Below are positions 2,853 to 18,075 of a DNA stretch of 23,703 bases, one piece after another (the first letter of the stretch is position 1; each line of letters starts with the position of its first letter). The stretch is from a virus. The notes below the pieces were generated by a model. That model worked only from the letters and a program-made list of their open reading frames with translations, was not told where the DNA came from and ran no database searches. The stretch spans positions 1-23,703 of the IMG/VR virus record IMGVR_UViG_3300034407_003137. One strand, 5' to 3'. Position numbers and translations under genes: made by a program.

Positions 2853-3157
2853 TAAACGAGACAGGAACTATAATAAAAATCTTAAATAATTCAGACTACC
2901 TAATATTTCTATTTTTATTTGGATTAGCTATGGTTTTACTTACTTTAAGTTTAAAAAAGAGGTATGAAAATTATATTAATGAAGTTTTTAATAAGAAGTT
3001 AGAAGTTTTGATTGAAGGTGGAAAACAAGCAGATTTAAGATATAAGGATTTTGAAAAAGATATGGTCAAAATGAAAGAGGATGTGTCAAAGATGAAAGAC
3101 TGCGTACATTCCTTAAAAGGATCATATAAAATGTTTGAAGCTTTTACTAAGAAATGA
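2849..3157 (+). CDS. Small membrane protein with coiled coil
   Basis: A 102-residue protein with one strongly hydrophobic segment (about 17-35, YLIFLFLFGLAMVLLTLSL). It is followed by basic residues and a charged heptad-like helix (about 60-90, KDFEKDMVKMKEDVSKMKD). It begins at an ATGA overlap with the previous stop and ends in a similar overlap with the next gene. A membrane anchor plus coiled coil is common among phage lysis accessory proteins and i-spanin-like proteins. A separate, better spanin pair lies downstream, so this is more likely an accessory or antiholin-type protein. The topology is supported; the function is not. Confidence 0.68.
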   Translation: MINETGTIIKILNNSDYLIFLFLFGLAMVLLTLSLKKRYENYINEVFNKKLEVLIEGGKQADLRYKDFEKDMVKMKEDVSKMKDCVHSLKGSYKMFEAFTKK

Positions 3158-3405
3158 AAGAGGATTTAAAAGAGACAGTTAAGGAGTTTTTAGTAATTCC
3201 TATGTTTTCTTATTTTGATAGACATAGGAGGCAAGGGAGGATATTTTTTAGGGGTTTGATATGCTCGCTACAACTATTTGCTATTATTTACGCTATTATT
3301 TATGGAATTATTACAGGTGTGGGGTCGATAATTATATTAAAAGGGTACTTTCTTGACATTATCAATAATTTAATTAAAATATCAAGTGATTGTAATCTAA
3401 TTTAA
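3154..3405 (+). CDS. Small membrane protein of the lysis cluster
   Basis: An 83-residue protein with a long hydrophobic stretch (about 35-65) that could form one long or two short membrane segments. A basic, arginine-rich region lies before it (FDRHRRQGRIFFRG). The positive-inside rule puts the N-terminus in the cytoplasm. The start overlaps the upstream stop (ATGA), consistent with translational coupling. Small size, membrane segments and its place in the lysis cluster make it a possible second holin, antiholin or pinholin. A promoter-like sequence for the next gene lies near its 3' end. No family is recognised. Confidence 0.65.
   Translation: MKEDLKETVKEFLVIPMFSYFDRHRRQGRIFFRGLICSLQLFAIIYAIIYGIITGVGSIIILKGYFLDIINNLIKISSDCNLI
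3353..3380 (+). promoter_or_regulatory. Candidate sigma70 promoter for the holin/spanin genes
   Basis: TTGACA (3353-3358), 16-bp spacer, TAAAAT (3375-3380), lying inside the end of the upstream gene and about 29 bp before the next start. Both hexamers match the promoters used elsewhere in this genome. Chance matches do occur in A+T-rich coding DNA, so confidence is moderate. Confidence 0.42.
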
Positions 3406-3408
3406 ATC

Positions 3409-3687
3409 ATGAGCAAGAAACAAAAAACCATAACAACTAATCAGCCAGTAACATTATTTCAAAATGTAGTTGGTCACACTTCTTCAAAAAGGGTTTCTGG
3501 TATTATATGTTTATTAGTAGGTGCAATATTACTTACTTACAATATAATATTTGGCATTCATAATAAAACAGCGGTAGAATTTGACAAGATAACCGATGCA
3601 ATATCTATATTTTTTTGGGCTGGCTCTGGCTTACTTGGTGTTAGTGTAACTGAATATTTTGGAAAACTTAATCCATTTAAAAAATGA
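3409..3687 (+). CDS. Holin-like protein (two membrane segments)
   Basis: A 92-residue protein with two predicted membrane helices, about residues 29-50 (VSGIICLLVGAILLTYNIIF) and 68-85 (ISIFFWAGSGLLGVSVTEYF). Both ends are polar, and the C-terminus is lysine-rich (GKLNPFKK). Size, topology and position directly before the spanins fit a class II holin. Holins make the inner-membrane lesions that release or activate the endolysin. The downstream M15 endolysin has no signal peptide and would need such a pore. The next gene starts inside the last 4 bp (ATGA). The assignment rests on topology and neighbours, not on a family motif. Confidence 0.6.
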   Translation: MSKKQKTITTNQPVTLFQNVVGHTSSKRVSGIICLLVGAILLTYNIIFGIHNKTAVEFDKITDAISIFFWAGSGLLGVSVTEYFGKLNPFKK

Positions 3688-3911
3688 TTCGCTATATTAT
3701 AGGGTCAGTCTTTGGTGGTTTTATTGCTTTAATAAGTGCTTACTTTAAAGGTAAATCAGTTGTTAAGGAGCAAGTAAGAGTTAAAGAGTTAGAAAAAGAA
3801 ATTGATAATCAAAATGAAGTTAAAAAGATTAAAAAGCGAGTTAATAAAAGTAAGTCTGATTCTAGGAATACTAAGCTTAACAGGTTGCGTAAAAGAGTTA
3901 AAGCCAAATAA
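3684..3911 (+). CDS. Rz: Inner-membrane spanin subunit (Rz-like)
   Basis: A 75-residue protein with an N-terminal hydrophobic segment (IIGSVFGGFIALISAYF, about 4-20). It is followed by a highly charged helix rich in Lys and Glu (KEQVRVKELEKEIDNQNEV) and a basic tail. This is the type II signal-anchor plus periplasmic coiled-coil plan of i-spanins. An o-spanin lipoprotein gene starts inside it in another frame, the classic Rz/Rz1 nesting. The pair spans the periplasm and fuses inner and outer membranes in the last step of lysis. The protein is shorter than lambda Rz (about 150 aa), within the range seen for compact phages. The assignment depends largely on the embedded lipoprotein. Confidence 0.72.
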   Translation: MIRYIIGSVFGGFIALISAYFKGKSVVKEQVRVKELEKEIDNQNEVKKIKKRVNKSKSDSRNTKLNRLRKRVKAK

Positions 3912-4056
3912 AGTTGATAACTTTTGCGAATGGGCTTTGCCCTTAGACCTGACAGAAAAAGATTTTAACTTCCTAGAAAAACAAGCTAGTATTAAATTAA
4001 TAGATGTGCTAGATGTATATAATACAGAATTTAATATTCAATGCAATGAAAACTAA
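3814..4056 (+). CDS. Rz1: Outer-membrane spanin lipoprotein (Rz1-like), overlapping the i-spanin gene
   Basis: I start this at the ATG at 3814; an in-frame TTG at 3802 is less likely. The 80-residue product opens with a basic n-region, a hydrophobic core (LIKVSLILGILSL) and a lipobox LTGC. This makes it a lipoprotein exported and acylated at that Cys. The mature part contains FCEWALPLDLTEKDF and ends in an N-x-x-F-x-x-x-C pattern. This matches the C-x-W-A-x-P-I ... D ... N ... C pattern of Rz1-type phage proteins. Its first ~98 bp lie within the i-spanin gene in a different frame. A lipoprotein spanin implies an outer membrane, hence a Gram-negative host. The next gene starts inside its last 11 bp. 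Confidence 0.8.
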   Translation: MKLKRLKSELIKVSLILGILSLTGCVKELKPNKVDNFCEWALPLDLTEKDFNFLEKQASIKLIDVLDVYNTEFNIQCNEN

Positions 4057-4603
4057 TATAATTTATATCCTATTATCATTCTTAGTTTTAGCATCCGCAA
4101 TAGTTGCAGCAGATAAAGCATATGGAGTAGAGTATAAGCCATTTATTGGCAAATCAGTAACTTACTACAACACAGATAGCACTCAAATTAACAAGAACGA
4201 GCATTTAAGCCGCATAGGCGACTATTTAAAAGGGGGTCATGTAGGTCTATCCATATTTAAAAATAACAGCTTTATTAGCTGTGCTAGCAACCGATTATTA
4301 CAACAACCAACCAAGATTAGATTTTTAAGTGGTCATATCGAAAGAAAATTCTTAAACGACACTTGCTCTTTAGGAAATTCTTTTCCTTCAAGATTTGGCA
4401 GATGGTCATCCTCTATTGCTTTATCAAGTGTAAATGTTTATGATAAATATAGTGGCGTAACCACTAGAAAATCAGCCTTCATTAAAGGTTTAGGTGCTGG
4501 TTTATTTAGGGGCAAGAATTACTACGGCGCATATTGGTTTGACCGTAACAACGAACTAGGCTTTAAAAATGCTTTTGGCTTAGTTTATAATAGATATTTC
4601 TAA
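4046..4603 (+). CDS. Exported protein, possible small outer-membrane beta-barrel
   Basis: The start at ATG 4046, rather than 4013, puts a standard signal peptide at the N-terminus: MKTN, a hydrophobic core (IIYILLSFLVLASAIVA) and likely cleavage near the A-D-K-A region. The mature part has alternating aromatic and polar residues and many Gly. It ends in VYNRYF; a terminal Phe with aromatic residues at alternate positions is the usual C-terminal strand signature of outer-membrane beta-barrels. The 185-residue size fits an 8-stranded barrel. It lies between the o-spanin and an exported nuclease. A phage-coded outer-membrane protein here could alter the surface, for example to block superinfection. 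This is inference; no family was recognised. Confidence 0.7.
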   Translation: MKTNIIYILLSFLVLASAIVAADKAYGVEYKPFIGKSVTYYNTDSTQINKNEHLSRIGDYLKGGHVGLSIFKNNSFISCASNRLLQQPTKIRFLSGHIERKFLNDTCSLGNSFPSRFGRWSSSIALSSVNVYDKYSGVTTRKSAFIKGLGAGLFRGKNYYGAYWFDRNNELGFKNAFGLVYNRYF

Positions 4604-4627: not shown

Positions 4628-5050
4628 ATGACTAAAATATTTAGTATTATATTATTAACAACTATATTTACTTGTGAAAGCTATGCTAATTCCTTTGGTG
4701 CAGAATATATCCGTAATTATGATGGTGACACGGTAACCGTAAACCTTAATTGCGGCACTGATTATTTTTGTAGGAATAGATCTGTTAGGATTTACGGAAT
4801 AGACACGCCAGAAATACGAACTAAAGACAGATGCGAAAAAAGAAAGGCAATATTAGCTAAAATATTTGTTAGTGATAAACTATCTGGTGCAACTGAAATC
4901 ATAGCCCATGATTGCCTACATGGCAAATATCATAGGGAAGTCTGCGAGATCATTTACGATGGTCATAATCTAGGTGAAGAGCTAATAGCTAATGGCTTAG
5001 CTTATCCTTATTTTGGCAAAACTAAGCAAAAAATTAATTGGTGTGAATAA
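4628..5050 (+). CDS. Exported staphylococcal-type thermonuclease (SNase)
   Basis: A 140-residue protein with a signal peptide (about 1-20, ending S-Y-A) followed by a complete SNase OB-fold domain. Recognisable motifs are YDGDTVTV (31-38, metal-binding Asp residues) and VRIYGIDTPEI (53-63, catalytic-type Arg54 and Glu62). Further on are GKYHREV (99-105, catalytic-type Arg103) and NLGEELIANGLAYPY. SNases cut DNA and RNA with Ca2+. Export places it in the periplasm. Several Cys residues (42, 48, 69, 96, 106, 139) could form disulfides there. It sits within the lysis cluster and its stop overlaps the start of the endolysin by 1 bp. A role in degrading released or incoming DNA, or in reducing lysate viscosity, is inference. 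Confidence 0.9.
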   Translation: MTKIFSIILLTTIFTCESYANSFGAEYIRNYDGDTVTVNLNCGTDYFCRNRSVRIYGIDTPEIRTKDRCEKRKAILAKIFVSDKLSGATEIIAHDCLHGKYHREVCEIIYDGHNLGEELIANGLAYPYFGKTKQKINWCE

Positions 5051-5514
5051 TGTTTTGGGAAAAAAAGAATTTAGAAAAGATAACCACTAAAAACTTTCAT
5101 TATAGTGAGTTTTTTTATAGTGTAAAAGCAAGGTTAAACGGTATAAATAATGACACTAGCAATCTAGCGGTATTAAGGAACTTAAAATACACAGCAAAGC
5201 AGATGCAGAAGATCAGGGATTTATTAGGTTTCCCCATCACGATAACAAGCGGTTATAGATGTGAAGATTTAAATGATTTAGTTGGTGGATCAAAAGGGAG
5301 TTATCACCTAATCGGACAAGCGGCAGATTTTATATGCCCTAGATTTGGCGATGCTACTGATATAATTAGAAAAATAAAAGATAGTAACATCCTTATAGAT
5401 CAATGTATTGCGGAATATAGAAACGGCGATCAATGGGTTCACGCTTCTTTTTTAAAACAACCTAGAAAAAGCTTCTTGGTTTATAAAGACGGTAAATATT
5501 CTGTTATAAATTAA
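5050..5514 (+). CDS. Endolysin, peptidase M15 family (M15_3-type)
   Basis: A 154-residue single-domain protein matching D-Ala-D-Ala carboxypeptidase / L-Ala-D-Glu endopeptidase-like M15 enzymes. It shows ITSGYRCEDLNDLVGGS (65-81), the zinc-binding SYHLIGQAADF (His86, Asp93) and WVHAS (third ligand His131). The upstream acidic residue Glu122 may be the catalytic base. These enzymes cut peptide bonds in peptidoglycan stems. There is no signal peptide, so release through a holin is expected; a holin candidate and spanins lie just upstream. It starts at a TAATG overlap with the nuclease gene. Its last 11 bp overlap the remnant of a methyltransferase gene on the opposite strand, where two transcription units converge. 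Confidence 0.9.
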   Translation: MFWEKKNLEKITTKNFHYSEFFYSVKARLNGINNDTSNLAVLRNLKYTAKQMQKIRDLLGFPITITSGYRCEDLNDLVGGSKGSYHLIGQAADFICPRFGDATDIIRKIKDSNILIDQCIAEYRNGDQWVHASFLKQPRKSFLVYKDGKYSVIN

Positions 5515-5620
5515 TATATAACTTTTCTTTAACCACTTTCTTTTTTTCTTCTGAGTTATTAAACAGACTAAGTTTATCTATTTCAAATAATACTTTATGC
5601 GGTGCATTATACTCACTCAT
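5504..5620 (-). pseudogene. C-terminal fragment of a D12-class DNA adenine methyltransferase
   Basis: The 38-codon reading frame from the ATG at 5620 begins MSEYNAP and ends EKLYIN. In D12-class N6-adenine methyltransferases of phages, an (F/V)-x-SEYN-x-P segment followed by a short basic C-terminus ending E-K-L-(F/Y) forms the last ~40 residues. The frame stays open upstream to 5659, reading KYTCFMSEYN. The Met is therefore probably internal, and the true gene once extended into what is now the end of the HNH gene. The N-terminal fragment of the same type of protein lies at 6312-6473. No central part with the DPPY motif is present between them. The family call is from memory of the motif and should be checked by alignment. 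Confidence 0.6.
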
Positions 5621-5636
5621 AAAACAAGTATATTTA

Positions 5637-6236
5637 TTAATATCCGTAAACTTCTTTTCTTATTTTTAATGCGTTATCTAGTGTTTTTGTATATCTTGAT
5701 TTTCTATTTCCTATAAATATCCTGTAATTACTAGTTGGTTTAGGTATGTAACCAGTTATATCAAAAATATAATCTAAACCAATATTACTTTTTGGTCTTT
5801 GATTTCTATTTTGCTCTGCTCTTGTTACAAATCGACAATTTTTAGGTTCATAATTTCCTTTCGGGTTTATTCTGTCAATAGTTAAGGTGTCTTTATATCC
5901 ATTATCTAAGCACCATTTTTCAAAATTAAAAAAACCATTCTCTTTATTTAACCATTCTTCACAAATAATTACTCCTTTTGCACCATAGTTTTTATAGTCT
6001 TTACAGGATTTTCTATAACATCTTTTTTTCATTCCTGACCATTTGCTGTATAATGGGCTTTTTGTTTTATCATCTCTTACCCATTTAAAAGAGTTGTTAT
6101 TTAATTCTCTTTTAACACACATTCCACACAAACCTTTTACAGCATACCTTTTTTCAACAATGCCTTTTTTAGTTTTATATCTATTTAAAGCACCATAAAG
6201 AGAGATATCTCTTTTGCAATTTTTACAAAATTTCAT
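5637..6236 (-). CDS. HNH homing-type endonuclease with zinc finger and AP2-like tail
   Basis: A 199-residue protein in three parts. The first is an N-terminal zinc ribbon (CKNC at 4-7, CGMC at 37-40). The second is an HNH core with NYGAKGVIICEEW (83-95), FFNFEKWCLDNGY and IDRINPKGNYEPKNCRFVT (120-138), ending EQNRNQR. The third is a C-terminal segment (about 155-195) with the basic, YRIFIG-type look of AP2/NUMOD-like DNA-binding repeats. This is the plan of free-standing and intron-encoded phage homing endonucleases, which cut a specific site and copy themselves in. It lies between two fragments of a DNA methyltransferase gene and has its own promoter. No intron splice signals could be established. 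Confidence 0.88.
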   Translation of the reverse strand: MKFCKNCKRDISLYGALNRYKTKKGIVEKRYAVKGLCGMCVKRELNNNSFKWVRDDKTKSPLYSKWSGMKKRCYRKSCKDYKNYGAKGVIICEEWLNKENGFFNFEKWCLDNGYKDTLTIDRINPKGNYEPKNCRFVTRAEQNRNQRPKSNIGLDYIFDITGYIPKPTSNYRIFIGNRKSRYTKTLDNALKIRKEVYGY

Positions 6237-6271
6237 TTTTAAATAAATTATAAGATTAATAACTTATAACT

Positions 6272-6300
6272 ATAATATATTTAAGAAACAAATTAGTCAA
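6272..6300 (-). promoter_or_regulatory. Promoter of the HNH endonuclease gene
   Basis: On the minus strand: TTGACT (6295-6300), 17-bp spacer, TATTAT (6272-6277). The predicted start near 6265 leaves a ~30-nt leader before the ATG at 6236. It lies after the premature stop of the methyltransferase fragment, so it belongs to the inserted segment and would give the endonuclease expression independent of the host gene. Confidence 0.6.
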
Positions 6301-6311
6301 TAAAAATATAT

Positions 6312-6473
6312 CTATACTCCGCAAAGATCAAAGAAATATTTTGCTCGTGGCTTTACTTCTAGCATCTTTCTTAATAGATCAACAGCTATCTTATTTTTAG
6401 AACCCATATAAGGCACTCTAAGATTTTTTATGTTTTCTGGTATTATCGGATATCCGAATAAATCATATCTCAT
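6312..6473 (-). pseudogene. N-terminal fragment of a D12-class DNA adenine methyltransferase, truncated at motif I
   Basis: Fifty-three codons from the ATG at 6473, too short to be noticed as a gene at first sight. The product contains RVPYMGSKNKIA (19-30), the N-terminal signature of Dam/D12 methyltransferases. It continues to KYFFDLCGV and then a TAG stop. Family members read F(V/I/F)DLFGGGG or FDLCGGGGS at this point (S-adenosylmethionine-binding motif I). The gene therefore breaks inside motif I, right where the HNH segment begins. It is coupled to the upstream gene by a TAATG overlap, so the fragment is probably still translated. Without the rest of motif I and the DPPY motif it cannot be an active methylase. 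Confidence 0.72.
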
Positions 6474-6835
6474 TAAGTATTATTTAAAATATAATTATTT
6501 AACTCTTCAACTGTCTTGCCAATTCTCTCAGCTTCATACTTAGGATAGTCACCCTGTAAAATCTGACTATATACTCTTAATCTAACCTGCCTTACTAATT
6601 CATCTTGATCACCATATTTAGCTTCCCATGTTTTAACTCCTATATGATGAATCCCCTCTTCCCCTCTATGGTGATTATAGCAAATTGGCATAATATCGTA
6701 GTTACTACTTTTAGCCCCGTAGCCTCTGTTTTTAGTGTTATGATGTAGCTCTGGTATTCCACCACAGATTAAACAGCCTAACTCGGCCACCATTCCCATG
6801 TATGCTCTTTCTTCTTTACTAGCCCTCTTTTTCAT
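6473..6835 (-). CDS. HNH nuclease resembling RecA-dependent nuclease Ref / DUF968
   Basis: A 120-residue protein. It has a zinc-binding pair CLIC (21-24), LHHN (30-33), then IMPICYNHHRGEEGIHH (48-64) and WEAKYG. This is the pattern of the small beta-beta-alpha-metal nucleases related to P1 Ref and the recombination-associated NinX/DUF968 phage proteins, which act on D-loops or recombination intermediates. In the same leftward unit lie an ERF annealing protein and a DUF1064 nuclease-like protein, supporting a recombination role. It starts within the last 4 bp of the DUF1064 gene and its stop overlaps the start of the truncated methyltransferase. Substrate specificity is inferred. Confidence 0.8.
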   Translation of the reverse strand: MKKRASKEERAYMGMVAELGCLICGGIPELHHNTKNRGYGAKSSNYDIMPICYNHHRGEEGIHHIGVKTWEAKYGDQDELVRQVRLRVYSQILQGDYPKYEAERIGKTVEELNNYILNNT

Positions 6836-7203
6836 TTTATCACTTCTCTAAATTCATAATTAATATAATCTTCATCACTCCTAAATATGTATAAAAGCAA
6901 TTTCTTTTTTATTCTGTAAACTGGATTTTCAGCGGTTATTTTACTTTTTAAATCCTCCACAATAACCTTGTCGCCCTCCTTATAAACAAAGTCAGCAACA
7001 TAATTTATTGATCTATGCTTTACCCCTTGACTGTCAGTAAAAGATGATTGTAATTCAAACGCAACTTGCAATTGTAAATCAGATATGTTTTTAACTTTCT
7101 CAAGTAATTTAAGATCTGTATATCTCTTTCCCTCTGCCTTAGAGTCAAATTTTATACCATCAATTATTGTTGGTATATTATTATATTTAAAACGCTTTCT
7201 CAT
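6832..7203 (-). CDS. DUF1064 family protein, putative PD-(D/E)xK-type nuclease
   Basis: A 123-residue protein matching the DUF1064 pattern. It opens with FKYNNIPTIIDGIKFDSKAE and KRYTDLKLLEK, then ISDLQLQVAFEL, NYVADFVYKEGDKVIVEDLK (71-90) and a basic YRIKKKLLLYIF segment. The combination of Glu (SKAE), Asp (YVADF), E-D-x-K (VEDLK) resembles the active site of restriction-endonuclease-fold resolvases and packaging/recombination nucleases. It is common in phage early regions next to annealing proteins. It follows its upstream neighbour with the TAA-TT-ATG junction used throughout this genome. Family assignment is strong; enzymatic role is established only by analogy. Confidence 0.82.
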   Translation of the reverse strand: MRKRFKYNNIPTIIDGIKFDSKAEGKRYTDLKLLEKVKNISDLQLQVAFELQSSFTDSQGVKHRSINYVADFVYKEGDKVIVEDLKSKITAENPVYRIKKKLLLYIFRSDEDYINYEFREVIK

Positions 7204-7205
7204 AA

Positions 7206-7646
7206 TTATTTTAATTTAGGTTGTTTAACTATCCTGCTTAACAAGCCTTTCTTTACTTTTTCGCTTGACTTCTCAATACTGTCGCAATTCTCTTTAACAA
7301 AGGAGGTAAATATATTTTGAAATTGTCTTGTTTGTTCTTCTGCTATCTCACACACATTATTAAGACTCATAGATATTATAGTGTTTATAAAATCTTGGTC
7401 TAGCTTTAAATCAAGACTCATATTACCTTTATCTGTTTTAGTTTGTTTAAAAGCCACACTACCAACATAATAATATATTTTATAATTCTTTCCATAACTA
7501 CACTCTTCTATTTCCTCAAAAAACCCTTTTGTCTTTAGAAATTCATTTTTAAGCTTTAATATTTCCTCGTTTTCTTCTGGATTATTATACTCTTTAGTTT
7601 CAAAAGTCTTACAAACTGAACTTATATTTAAACTATTTATTTTCAT
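7206..7646 (-). CDS. Hypothetical early protein
   Basis: A 146-residue soluble protein, acidic near the N-terminus (NPEENEEILKLKNEF) and basic at the C-terminus (KVKKGLLSRIVKQPKLK). It has a beta-rich centre (NYKIYYYVGSVAFKQTKT) and a helical C-terminal third with predicted amphipathic character (EIAEEQTRQFQNIFTSFVKE). No motif or membrane segment is seen. It is joined on both sides by the TAA-TT-ATG junction to a larger unknown gene upstream and to the DUF1064 gene downstream. The three are thus probably one translational unit, and a recombination or replication accessory role is possible but unproven. Confidence 0.7.
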   Translation of the reverse strand: MKINSLNISSVCKTFETKEYNNPEENEEILKLKNEFLKTKGFFEEIEECSYGKNYKIYYYVGSVAFKQTKTDKGNMSLDLKLDQDFINTIISMSLNNVCEIAEEQTRQFQNIFTSFVKENCDSIEKSSEKVKKGLLSRIVKQPKLK

Positions 7647-10538: not shown

Positions 10539-11018
10539 TTATTTTATTAAGTGTTTGATCTTATCTAATTGACTTTGTGTTAGTTCAATTTGGATTTTTT
10601 CATCTTCGATTATCTCAATTTCTCGATCTAGACATTTGTGGAGTGAGTTATTTCTTGTTCCTGAAATTGATTTACATTTTAAAGATTCATAAGCTATGCA
10701 AAAAGCATAATATTTTATGTTATCAGCATCGATCTTGCGAGCATAGAGATTGCGAGCATCGATATTATGAGCATTGAGATTGTGAGCAACGATATTGAGA
10801 GCAATATCGATCTTGCGAGCATAGAGATTGCGAGCATCGATATTGAGAGCATTGATATTGTAAGCATCGATATTGTGAGCAACGATATTGTGAGCTTTTA
10901 GATTACAAGGAATTTTACAATCAAAAGTGATCTCTAAATCCTCCTTCAATACTATTGTGTTGGATTCATTGGCAGTTGCTATTAAATCGTCTAGTTCTTT
11001 TTGTGTTGTTATTTTCAT
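10539..11018 (-). CDS. Pentapeptide-repeat protein, copy 1
   Basis: A 159-residue protein in three parts. The N-terminal cap (about 1-40) contains the block DDLIATANESNTIVLKEDLE. About 12 pentapeptides of A-x-N-(I/L)-x type follow (NIVAH, NIDAY, NLYAR), predicted to form a right-handed quadrilateral beta-helix. The conserved C-terminal cap is YYAFCIAYESLKCKSISG with CLDREIEIIEDEK. The same cap is seen in pentapeptide proteins of other phages. One repeat carries an extra residue (KIDIALNIV), caused by a 3-nt insertion, which breaks the register. A second copy lies at 11283-11789 with nearly identical caps. Some pentapeptide proteins mimic DNA to inhibit gyrase; whether this one does is unknown. 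Confidence 0.85.
   Translation of the reverse strand: MKITTQKELDDLIATANESNTIVLKEDLEITFDCKIPCNLKAHNIVAHNIDAYNINALNIDARNLYARKIDIALNIVAHNLNAHNIDARNLYARKIDADNIKYYAFCIAYESLKCKSISGTRNNSLHKCLDREIEIIEDEKIQIELTQSQLDKIKHLIK
10722..10905 (-). repeat. 15-bp tandem repeat tract coding the pentapeptides of copy 1
   Basis: About 12 degenerate 15-bp units on the minus strand (type GCTCACAATATCGAT). Units vary mainly at the third residue-coding triplet (CAC, TAC, CTC, CGC). One unit has a 3-nt insertion that disturbs the 15-bp period. Confidence 0.85.
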
Positions 11019-11282: not shown

Positions 11283-11789
11283 TTAATTTATTAAGTGTTT
11301 GATTTTATCTAGCTGAGCTTTTGTTAGTTCAATTTGGATTTTTTCATCTTCGATTATCTCAATTTCTCGATCTAGACATTTGTGGAGTGAGTTATTTCTT
11401 TTTCCTGAAATTGATTTACATTTTAAAGATTCATAAGCTATGCAAAAAGCATAATATTTTATGTTATCAGCATAGATCTTGCGAGCATCGATATTGAGAG
11501 CATAGAGATTATGAACATCGATATTATGAGCATTGAGATTGCGAACATCGATATTGTGAGCACCGATATTGAGAGCATAGAGATTATGAGCATCGATATT
11601 GCGAGCATCGATATTGTAAGCATCGATATTGAGAGCATCGATATTGTGAGCAACGATATTGTGAGCTTTTAGATTACAGGGAATTTCACAATCAAAAGTG
11701 ATCTCTAAATCCTCCATCAATACTATTGTGTTGTATTCATTGGCAGTTGCTATTAAATCGTCTAGTTGTGTTTGGTTTGTTATTTTCAT
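11283..11789 (-). CDS. Pentapeptide-repeat protein, copy 2
   Basis: A 168-residue paralogue of the protein at 10539-11018. Caps are almost the same; differences include T-x-Q/K-E versus T-Q at the N-terminus, GKRNN for GTRNN, and KAQLDKIKHLIN for SQSQLDKIKHLIK-like residues at the end. The repeat region has about 14 regular pentads (NIVAH, NIDAL, NIDAY, NLYAL, NIGAH, NIDVR) without the slip seen in copy 1. The two tracts differ in length and unit order while the flanks are conserved. This suggests duplication followed by unequal recombination or replication slippage within the 15-bp repeats. It follows a small DUF4116-like gene through TAA-TC-ATG. Confidence 0.85.
   Translation of the reverse strand: MKITNQTQLDDLIATANEYNTIVLMEDLEITFDCEIPCNLKAHNIVAHNIDALNIDAYNIDARNIDAHNLYALNIGAHNIDVRNLNAHNIDVHNLYALNIDARKIYADNIKYYAFCIAYESLKCKSISGKRNNSLHKCLDREIEIIEDEKIQIELTKAQLDKIKHLIN
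11466..11674 (-). repeat. 15-bp tandem repeat tract coding the pentapeptides of copy 2
   Basis: About 14 degenerate 15-bp units on the minus strand of the same family as the tract at 10722-10905. Periodicity is uninterrupted. Downstream flanks (11283-11465 and 10539-10721) have exactly equal length, 183 bp, so all of the length change between the two genes here is upstream of that point. Confidence 0.85.
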
Positions 11790-16585: not shown

Positions 16586-17176
16586 ATGAAAAAAACATTA
16601 AAAGAATTTCTTGAAAAAAATAATGCTTGTAAAGGTGGTTATTTATTCGCTAAAGATCTAACCCTCGAAGAGTTCTTAGCAACTTGTCCTCGAGGAGATT
16701 GGATTTTATGGCTTTTTGTTAAGTCTAATCCAGATTCTTTAAAAGAACTAACCCTTGCAAAAGGTCATTGTGCCAACACGGTTAGACACTTGATGGAAGA
16801 TAAAAAAAGTATAAAAGCCGTAGATGTAGCCATTGCATTTGGCGAGGGTAAAGCAACTAAAAAAGAGTTAAATTCTGCTTCTGCCGCCGCTTATGCCGCT
16901 TCTGATGCTTCTGCCGCTTCTGCCGCTTATGCCGCTTCTGACGCTGATGCCGCTTATGCCGCTTCTAATGCCACTTATGCCGCTTTTGCCGCTTCTGCCG
17001 CTTATACCGCTTATACCGCTTATACCGCTTATACCGCTGATGCCGCTGATGCCGCTGATGCCGCTTCTGATGCCGCTTCTGGTGACTCCACTTCCCCTAC
17101 CTATAAACAAAACCAGATGGAAACAGCGGATATATGCAGGAAGTATTTACCTTTACAAATCTGGAATATAAAATAA
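16586..17176 (+). CDS. Ala-rich repeat protein, copy 1 (Imm-5-like in appearance)
   Basis: A 196-residue protein. The N-terminal ~97 residues form a folded-looking domain with an FLEKNNACKGG start, ATCPRGDWILWLF and LAKGHCANTVRHLME. A ~66-codon low-complexity helical tract of A-A-S / A-A-Y / A-A-D triplets follows, then the C-terminal cap QMETADICRKYLPLQIWNIK. Many phage and bacterial proteins share this plan (CPxxDWLLWL, then AAxAA repeats, then a short cap with Q-x-x-D-I-x-R-x-x-L). They are annotated as Imm-5-like putative immunity proteins; the true role is not established. A near-identical second copy lies at 17428-18075. Signs of domain repetition are strong; the family name is from memory. 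Confidence 0.8.
   Translation: MKKTLKEFLEKNNACKGGYLFAKDLTLEEFLATCPRGDWILWLFVKSNPDSLKELTLAKGHCANTVRHLMEDKKSIKAVDVAIAFGEGKATKKELNSASAAAYAASDASAASAAYAASDADAAYAASNATYAAFAASAAYTAYTAYTAYTADAADAADAASDAASGDSTSPTYKQNQMETADICRKYLPLQIWNIK
16883..17080 (+). repeat. 9-bp tandem repeat tract coding the Ala-rich region, copy 1
   Basis: 198 bp built from 9-bp units GCCGCTTCT, GCCGCTTAT and GCCGCTGAT plus variants. It includes a run of four near-identical ACC-GCT-TAT units followed by three GCC-GCT-GAT-type units. G+C content is far above that of the rest of the window. Confidence 0.9.
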
Positions 17177-17427: not shown

Positions 17428-18075
17428 ATGAAAAAAACACTAAAAGAATTTCTTGAAAAAAATAATGCTTGTAAAGGTGGTTATTTATTCGCTAAAGATC
17501 TAACCCTTGAAGAGTTCTTAGCAACTTGTCCTCGAGGAGATTGGATTTTATGGCTTTTTGTTAAGTCTAATCCAGATTCTTTAAAAGAACTAACCCTTGC
17601 AAAAGGTCATTGTGCCAACACGGTTAGACACTTGATGGAAGATAAAAAAAGTATAAAAGCCGTAGATGTAGCCATTGCATTTGGCGAGGGTAAAGCAACT
17701 AAAAAAGAGTTAAATTCTGCTTCTGCCGCCGCTTATGCCGCTTATGCCGCTTATGCCACTTATGCCGCTTATGACGCTGATGCCGCTTCTAATGCCGCTT
17801 ATGCCGCTTATGCCGCTTATGCCACTTATGCCACTTATGCCGCTTCTGCCGCTTCTGGTGCCGCTTATGACGCTTCTAATGCCGCTTATGCCGCTTATGC
17901 CGCTTCTGATGCTTCTGCCGCTTATGCCGCTGCCGCCACTTATGCCGCTTCTGCCGCTTTTGCCGCTTCTGCCGCTTCTGGTGACTCCACTTCCCCTACC
18001 TATAAACAAAACCAGATGGAAACAGCGGATATATGCAGGAGGTATTTACCTTTACAAATCTGGAATATAAAATAA
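17428..18075 (+). CDS. Ala-rich repeat protein, copy 2 (Imm-5-like in appearance)
   Basis: A 215-residue paralogue of the protein at 16586-17176. Over the first ~290 bp I see only two base differences, both silent. In the C-terminal cap the only change seen gives CRRYLPL instead of CRKYLPL. The repeat tract is 85 codons against 66 and has a different unit order (A-A-Y units dominate; one irregular AAAATY stretch). This combination of near-perfect flanks and rearranged repeats means recent duplication or gene conversion with rapid slippage inside the tract. It is linked to genes on both sides by TAA-TT-ATG. Confidence 0.8.
   Translation: MKKTLKEFLEKNNACKGGYLFAKDLTLEEFLATCPRGDWILWLFVKSNPDSLKELTLAKGHCANTVRHLMEDKKSIKAVDVAIAFGEGKATKKELNSASAAAYAAYAAYATYAAYDADAASNAAYAAYAAYATYATYAASAASGAAYDASNAAYAAYAASDASAAYAAAATYAASAAFAASAASGDSTSPTYKQNQMETADICRRYLPLQIWNIK
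17725..17979 (+). repeat. 9-bp tandem repeat tract coding the Ala-rich region, copy 2
   Basis: 255 bp of 9-bp units, mainly GCCGCTTAT and GCCGCTTCT with GCCACTTAT variants, and one irregular segment near 17926-17940 that shifts the 3-residue period while keeping the frame. Confidence 0.9.

Follow-up and report, generated by a model that had tools for sequence, protein, structure and literature searches.

A hidden HNH endonuclease inserted in a DNA methylase gene has been described in the mycobacteriophage ShiLan (PMC11855218), AP2-associated HNH homing genes are found across a wide range of phages, marine Barbaviruses among them (PMC10448857), and in T4-like phages genes are split by free-standing homing endonucleases, as in the mobE and mobA insertions (PMC2988022). 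We analyzed a single metagenomic record of 23.7 kb (IMG/VR record IMGVR_UViG_3300034407_003137, positions 1 to 23,703; hereafter the window), in which an HNH endonuclease gene stands between the two ends of a methyltransferase gene. As in ShiLan, the HNH protein is small (195 aa there, 199 aa here) with zinc-finger-like parts, the site lies at conserved residues of a phage methylase, an intron or intein is not detectable, and the insertion has a stop codon at its 3' edge. The methylase frame of ShiLan, in contrast, stays open across the insert and may remain functional, whereas the frames here are broken; the ShiLan insertion is polymorphic among relatives, whereas here there is one instance and ~227 methylase residues are gone. 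The locus shares with the ICP1-like IPA-HNH genes an HNH domain too divergent for the Pfam HNH models, a C-terminus that may be AP2-like, and a distribution in phages, but those genes are often found in or close to essential genes (for DNA polymerase, RNR, and terminase), whereas here the recipient is an orphan methyltransferase and it is destroyed (PMC10448857). It resembles the mobE and mobA cases in that an endonuclease gene lies between two parts of a conserved gene with no detectable intron, and differs in that no residues are lost from the split T4-type genes, which form functional two-part enzymes, whereas here the catalytic core is lost (PMC2988022). With ShiLan, the insertion of an HNH gene into a phage methylase has already been described, and the variation at this locus is the loss of the catalytic core.

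The features of the locus are collected in Table 1. The 5' remnant lies in an ORF of 53 codons (6473-6312, minus strand; MRYDLFGYPIIPENIKNLRVPYMGSKNKIAVDLLRKMLEVKPRAKYFFDLCGV-stop), the last codons of which are already insert-derived. The TAATG overlap with the upstream gene, which a previous reading of this DNA made from the sequence alone (the sequence-only reading) had pointed out, is present at 6475-6471 and joins the DUF968 gene to the 5' remnant; it is also found in relatives (in L009, one of the IMG/VR contigs described below, the end of the upstream ORF and the methyltransferase start lie at 3001). A 53-residue leader peptide may still be made via translational coupling to the upstream gene. 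The 3' remnant (NKYTCFMSEYNAPHKVLFEIDKLSLFNNSEEKKKVVKEKLYINL-stop, NKYTCFMSEY...EKLYINL-stop), which encodes the last ~44 residues of the methyltransferase, terminates at 5504, in a frame that differs from the frames of both the 5' remnant and the HNH gene, and the Met of FMSEY is without any ATG before it. Its open frame shares about 20 bases with the 3' end of the HNH ORF, the overlap that the same reading had described, and its end is overlapped by 11 nt by the M15_3 peptidase gene.

Table 1 Features of the interrupted methyltransferase locus in the window.
Feature	Position (nt)	Strand	Basis or remark
DUF968 / phrog_1588 HNH-like gene	6473..6835	(-)	upstream of the methyltransferase remnant; Pfam and PHROG matches
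5' methyltransferase remnant	6319..6473	(-)	residues 1-51 and two bases of codon 52
Replaced block	5639..6318	(-)	~680 nt insert, edges certain to 1-2 nt; junction alignment with L009
AT-rich leader of the HNH gene	6237..6318	(-)	82 nt, about 13% GC
HNH endonuclease gene, intact, 199 aa	5637..6236	(-)	phrog_374, invariant residues, AF2, Foldseek
3' methyltransferase remnant	5504..5638	(-)	profile match; DNA alignment to L009
M15_3 peptidase (endolysin-like) gene, convergent	5050..5514	(+)	PF08291 E = 2.5e-17; phrog_894 endolysin E = 8.7e-34

When viral contigs were scanned with the 53-aa piece, ten loci were identified, eight of which (L002-L009) were 94% identical in amino acid sequence over residues 1-52. 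In relatives of sufficient length the frame continues into a methyltransferase of 318-324 aa, the C-terminal end of which corresponds to the window's 3' piece. A wider scan of viral contigs yielded 31 loci; after duplicate removal, the uninterrupted homologues that the sequence-only reading had suggested seeking were present as an intact single frame in 25 contigs, another four contigs ended within the gene, and two (L031, L041) were frameshifted. An HNH gene inside the methyltransferase gene was found in none of the deduplicated relative contigs. The D12-class adenine methyltransferase of phage Lau218 (AIA83194) and those of the IMG/VR contigs L002-L044 are homologues of the window's broken gene and, unlike it, are intact, with motif I, a leucine-rich repeat insert, and DPPY. 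The repeat (LEQLQQLERL...; L009 3001-3975, residues ~200-226) varies in length between near-identical contigs, a variation that could alter specificity or switch the gene, and it is within this repeat that the reading frame of L041 breaks. The two frameshifts in the L031 methyltransferase (2986-3921) are either real decay or sequencing errors.

Against a search profile built from the methyltransferases of five intact relatives, the 5' remnant matched positions 2-41 (E = 3.1e-19) and the 3' remnant matched positions 274-320 (E = 6.5e-18). Both match one methyltransferase profile and are therefore the two ends of one gene; with the intact 199-aa HNH gene between them, the proposal that a methyltransferase had been broken by an HNH gene was borne out. 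Pfam and PHROG searches of either remnant alone returned no matches because general libraries do not recognize pieces this short; the profile of the relatives was the only search to detect them. The intact relatives match PF02086 (MethyltransfD12) above its gathering score of 22, L009 at 39.8 bits (E = 5.8e-10 for the relatives) and L010 at 32.4 bits. For the Dam subfamily TIGR00571, L009 scored 27.3 bits against a cut-off of 114.85 and L010 was not listed, and thus of the D12/Dam identity first suggested, D12 was retained whereas Dam (27 bits versus 115 for L009) was dropped. By this profile assignment, the broken gene is a predicted orphan D12-class (PF02086) adenine methyltransferase. From motif I (from G53) through DPPY (253-256), the conserved residues kept in the relatives are missing in the window, including those between G53 and DPPY that are invariant among 15 relatives. 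Judged from its residues, the window carries D12 remnants and no member predicted to be able to act; with motif I cut and DPPY gone, we infer that the methyltransferase would be non-functional.

The junctions were located by alignment with L009, to which identity stops after ...TTTGATCTTTGCGG (6319) and restarts at AATAAATATACTTG (about 5639/5638). The stretch between these points measures 680 nt in the window and 682 nt in L009, where it corresponds to about 227 codons (residues ~53-279), the middle 70% of the gene, with DPPY and the remainder of motif I (GGGS) among them; motif I marks just one edge of the block that was replaced. The sequence-only reading had put the loss at ~150 central residues including DPPY, which holds for the loss itself but not for its size, about 227 residues in L009 numbering. 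A tblastn search for the missing core elsewhere in the window did not find it (best E 6.1). The near-equal lengths lost and gained (682 and 680 nt) are probably a coincidence, because the length of the leucine-rich repeat varies among relatives (L004 has 18 nt less, L002 3 nt less). Both methyltransferase ends retain about 91-95% DNA identity to the relatives (94% for the 3' remnant versus L009) and the junctions are clean. The 82 nt of leader precede the HNH start codon and none follow its stop, a TAA that spans the right junction; with the edges of the cassette so near the junctions, little beyond the nuclease gene therefore came in. Using L009 for comparison and L010 as the outgroup, we counted three nucleotide changes that fell to the window lineage where the remnants could be compared (two in the 5' piece and one in the 3' piece), which suggests that the core may have been lost recently, the counts being small and below what dating needs. 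The left-junction sequence was found in no other viral contig. The trinucleotide composition of the insert is ordinary for the window, with 24% of windows deviating as much, and composition was rejected as a sign of foreign origin.

The HNH protein matched phrog_374 (E = 1.8e-39) and, as the second match, PHROG 3377 (E = 7.7e-35). It consists of an N-terminal CxxC...CxxC, a central DRI-type HNH domain (residues 60-147), and a putative AP2-like C-terminus (residues ~170-198) that aligns with the AP2-like tails of the family and is without a match to Pfam AP2. The columns invariant in 28 aligned family proteins, including the DRI...GNYEP.NC motif, are kept in the window HNH. In the AF2 model, residues 61-140 have a pLDDT of 95-98, and the C-terminus is modeled with moderate confidence as a strand-strand-helix (pLDDT 64-74). 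Foldseek matched the model to viral proteins named HNH and AP2/ERF, with E down to 4.7e-12, and sequence and fold searches of the PDB with the HNH gave nothing significant, including any AP2 match. On these features, the gene is assigned to a phage DRI-HNH/AP2-like family, and its product is probably an active nuclease. Arginine R122 (5871-5873) is invariant in 28 of the 28 aligned members; I-HmuI-type motifs have DH, and the DR of this family puts an arginine where the usual catalytic histidine is expected. The family is large (948 phage records and >590 viral-contig matches), and the members found are only 31-45% identical to the window HNH, for which no close relative was found in viral contigs, bacterial genomes, or the records of the methyltransferase relatives. 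At none of 80 loci was a family member beside or inside this methyltransferase family. In the Bacillus phage vB_BauM_KLEB27-3, two gene parts annotated as DNA polymerase III alpha flank a member of the family. At the site itself, the HNH gene is absent in all relatives and present once, in the window, where it is accompanied by the deletion.

The leader of the HNH gene contains TTGACT-17-TATTAT at 6300-6272, which the sequence-only reading had taken as the gene's own promoter. The letters are there, but sites of this kind number nine in the region versus 8.8 ± 3.1 in shuffled sequence, and we rejected the promoter as evidence since its sites occur at chance frequency. No clear Shine-Dalgarno sequence was seen in the leader.

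Genes surrounding the methyltransferase differ between the window and its relatives. In L002-L009, the DUF968/HNH-like gene is represented by a 26-residue in-frame remnant (MKKRASKEER-IGKTVRELESYILNNT; L009 2921-3001), the product of a deletion independent of the methyltransferase loss. Between the conserved neighbors beside the methyltransferase, the window has the M15_3 peptidase and L009 has an unrelated 131-aa ORF (4047-4442, minus strand) that resembles DUF5675 by eye, an apparent swap of lysis genes. Further upstream, at 6832-7203 (minus strand), the window encodes a DUF1064/phrog_190 Holliday-junction-resolvase-type gene, where L009 has two ORFs (1984-2325 and 2330-2920) that, judged by eye, are RusA-like and cytosine-methyltransferase-like. 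Elsewhere in the window, the neighboring genes at 16586-17176 and 17428-18075 (plus strand) have near-identical ends but alanine-rich repeats (AAYAASDA...) in the middle that differ, as if a duplicated gene had diverged in its repeats, and the duplicated genes at 10539-11018 and 11283-11789 (minus strand) have near-identical ends and NIDAH/NLDAH five-residue repeats.

We consider it likely that a homing-endonuclease-type HNH gene replaced the catalytic core of the orphan D12-class adenine methyltransferase in this phage lineage. The HNH gene would have come in when a broken methyltransferase gene was repaired, or as the template of that repair, and a cut by the nuclease itself may have led to its entry. 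The core would have been lost in the same event by end-joining or illegitimate recombination or, alternatively, by a later deletion from the HNH stop to codon ~280. Once expressed, the HNH protein would nick or cut related genomes and thereby bias the inheritance of the segment in mixed infections. It counts against this explanation that insertion by homing does not normally delete the recipient gene. A more elaborate form of it, in which the nuclease cut and resection destroy the recipient, an equal-length cassette (680 for 682 nt) replaces the core, and the phage gives up methylation in exchange for a nuclease directed against competitors that carry the methylase, strikes us as very improbable. 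The gene could instead be interrupted and yet functional, through an intron, an intein, or a split gene comparable to nrdA of Aeh1. An HNH gene within a conserved motif does resemble an intron- or intein-borne homing gene, and functional split genes are known (PMC2988022), but about 227 residues, DPPY among them, are gone from the gene and were found nowhere else in the window, no RNA family was matched, and the HNH gene and the 3' remnant are in different frames. An Rfam search of 5000-7300, which ran the intron covariance-model check proposed earlier, gave no match up to E = 1. A group I/II intron was rejected for lack of an Rfam match and because the exons do not abut with the core missing, and an intein because the methyltransferase core is missing. 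Since there is no Rfam match, the ends do not abut, and the frames of the HNH gene and the 3' end differ, we therefore read the locus as no intron, intein, or split functional gene, and give a working interrupted gene almost no credence; the earlier view of an insertion plus a deletion in place of a simple intron agrees with the negative Rfam result and with the loss of the center seen against the relatives.

Ordinary decay, in which a dispensable methyltransferase was deleted through random illegitimate recombination and the HNH gene was captured by mosaic exchange with its nuclease activity playing no part, is the alternative to which we give the most weight, while still regarding it as unlikely. 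Two relatives, L031 and L041, have frameshifted copies of the methyltransferase, the DUF968 gene was independently shortened by an in-frame internal deletion in L002-L009, and nearby genes were also swapped (L009 has another gene in place of the window's M15 peptidase), which marks the region as mosaic and prone to deletion. The incoming gene, however, is a homing-type nuclease that both starts and stops almost exactly at the junctions, as an HNH cassette would and a random segment would not. It is improbable, in turn, that the assembler fused a methyltransferase-bearing phage to the HNH sequence of another population and that no such genome exists. Such a chimera would fit a locus known from one 23.7-kb metagenomic record, with a left junction unique among viral contigs and an HNH gene absent from all the relatives' records searched, but it needs two independent junctions that both leave the remnants in the same order and orientation, and about as far apart, as in one gene, a long shared word is visible at neither of them, and the composition of the insert is unremarkable for the window.

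In many described cases, the host gene of a homing endonuclease is kept working via introns, inteins, or split subunits. The replacement of the methyltransferase core by the HNH gene, as we favor it, would provide a clean natural case in which a selfish nuclease gene has inactivated the DNA methyltransferase of a phage and intact neighbors are at hand for comparison. Current ideas on the behavior of homing genes are unchanged by this case, which adds a D12 methyltransferase to the landing sites of HNH genes and suggests that the orphan methylases of phages are dispensable enough for such a loss.
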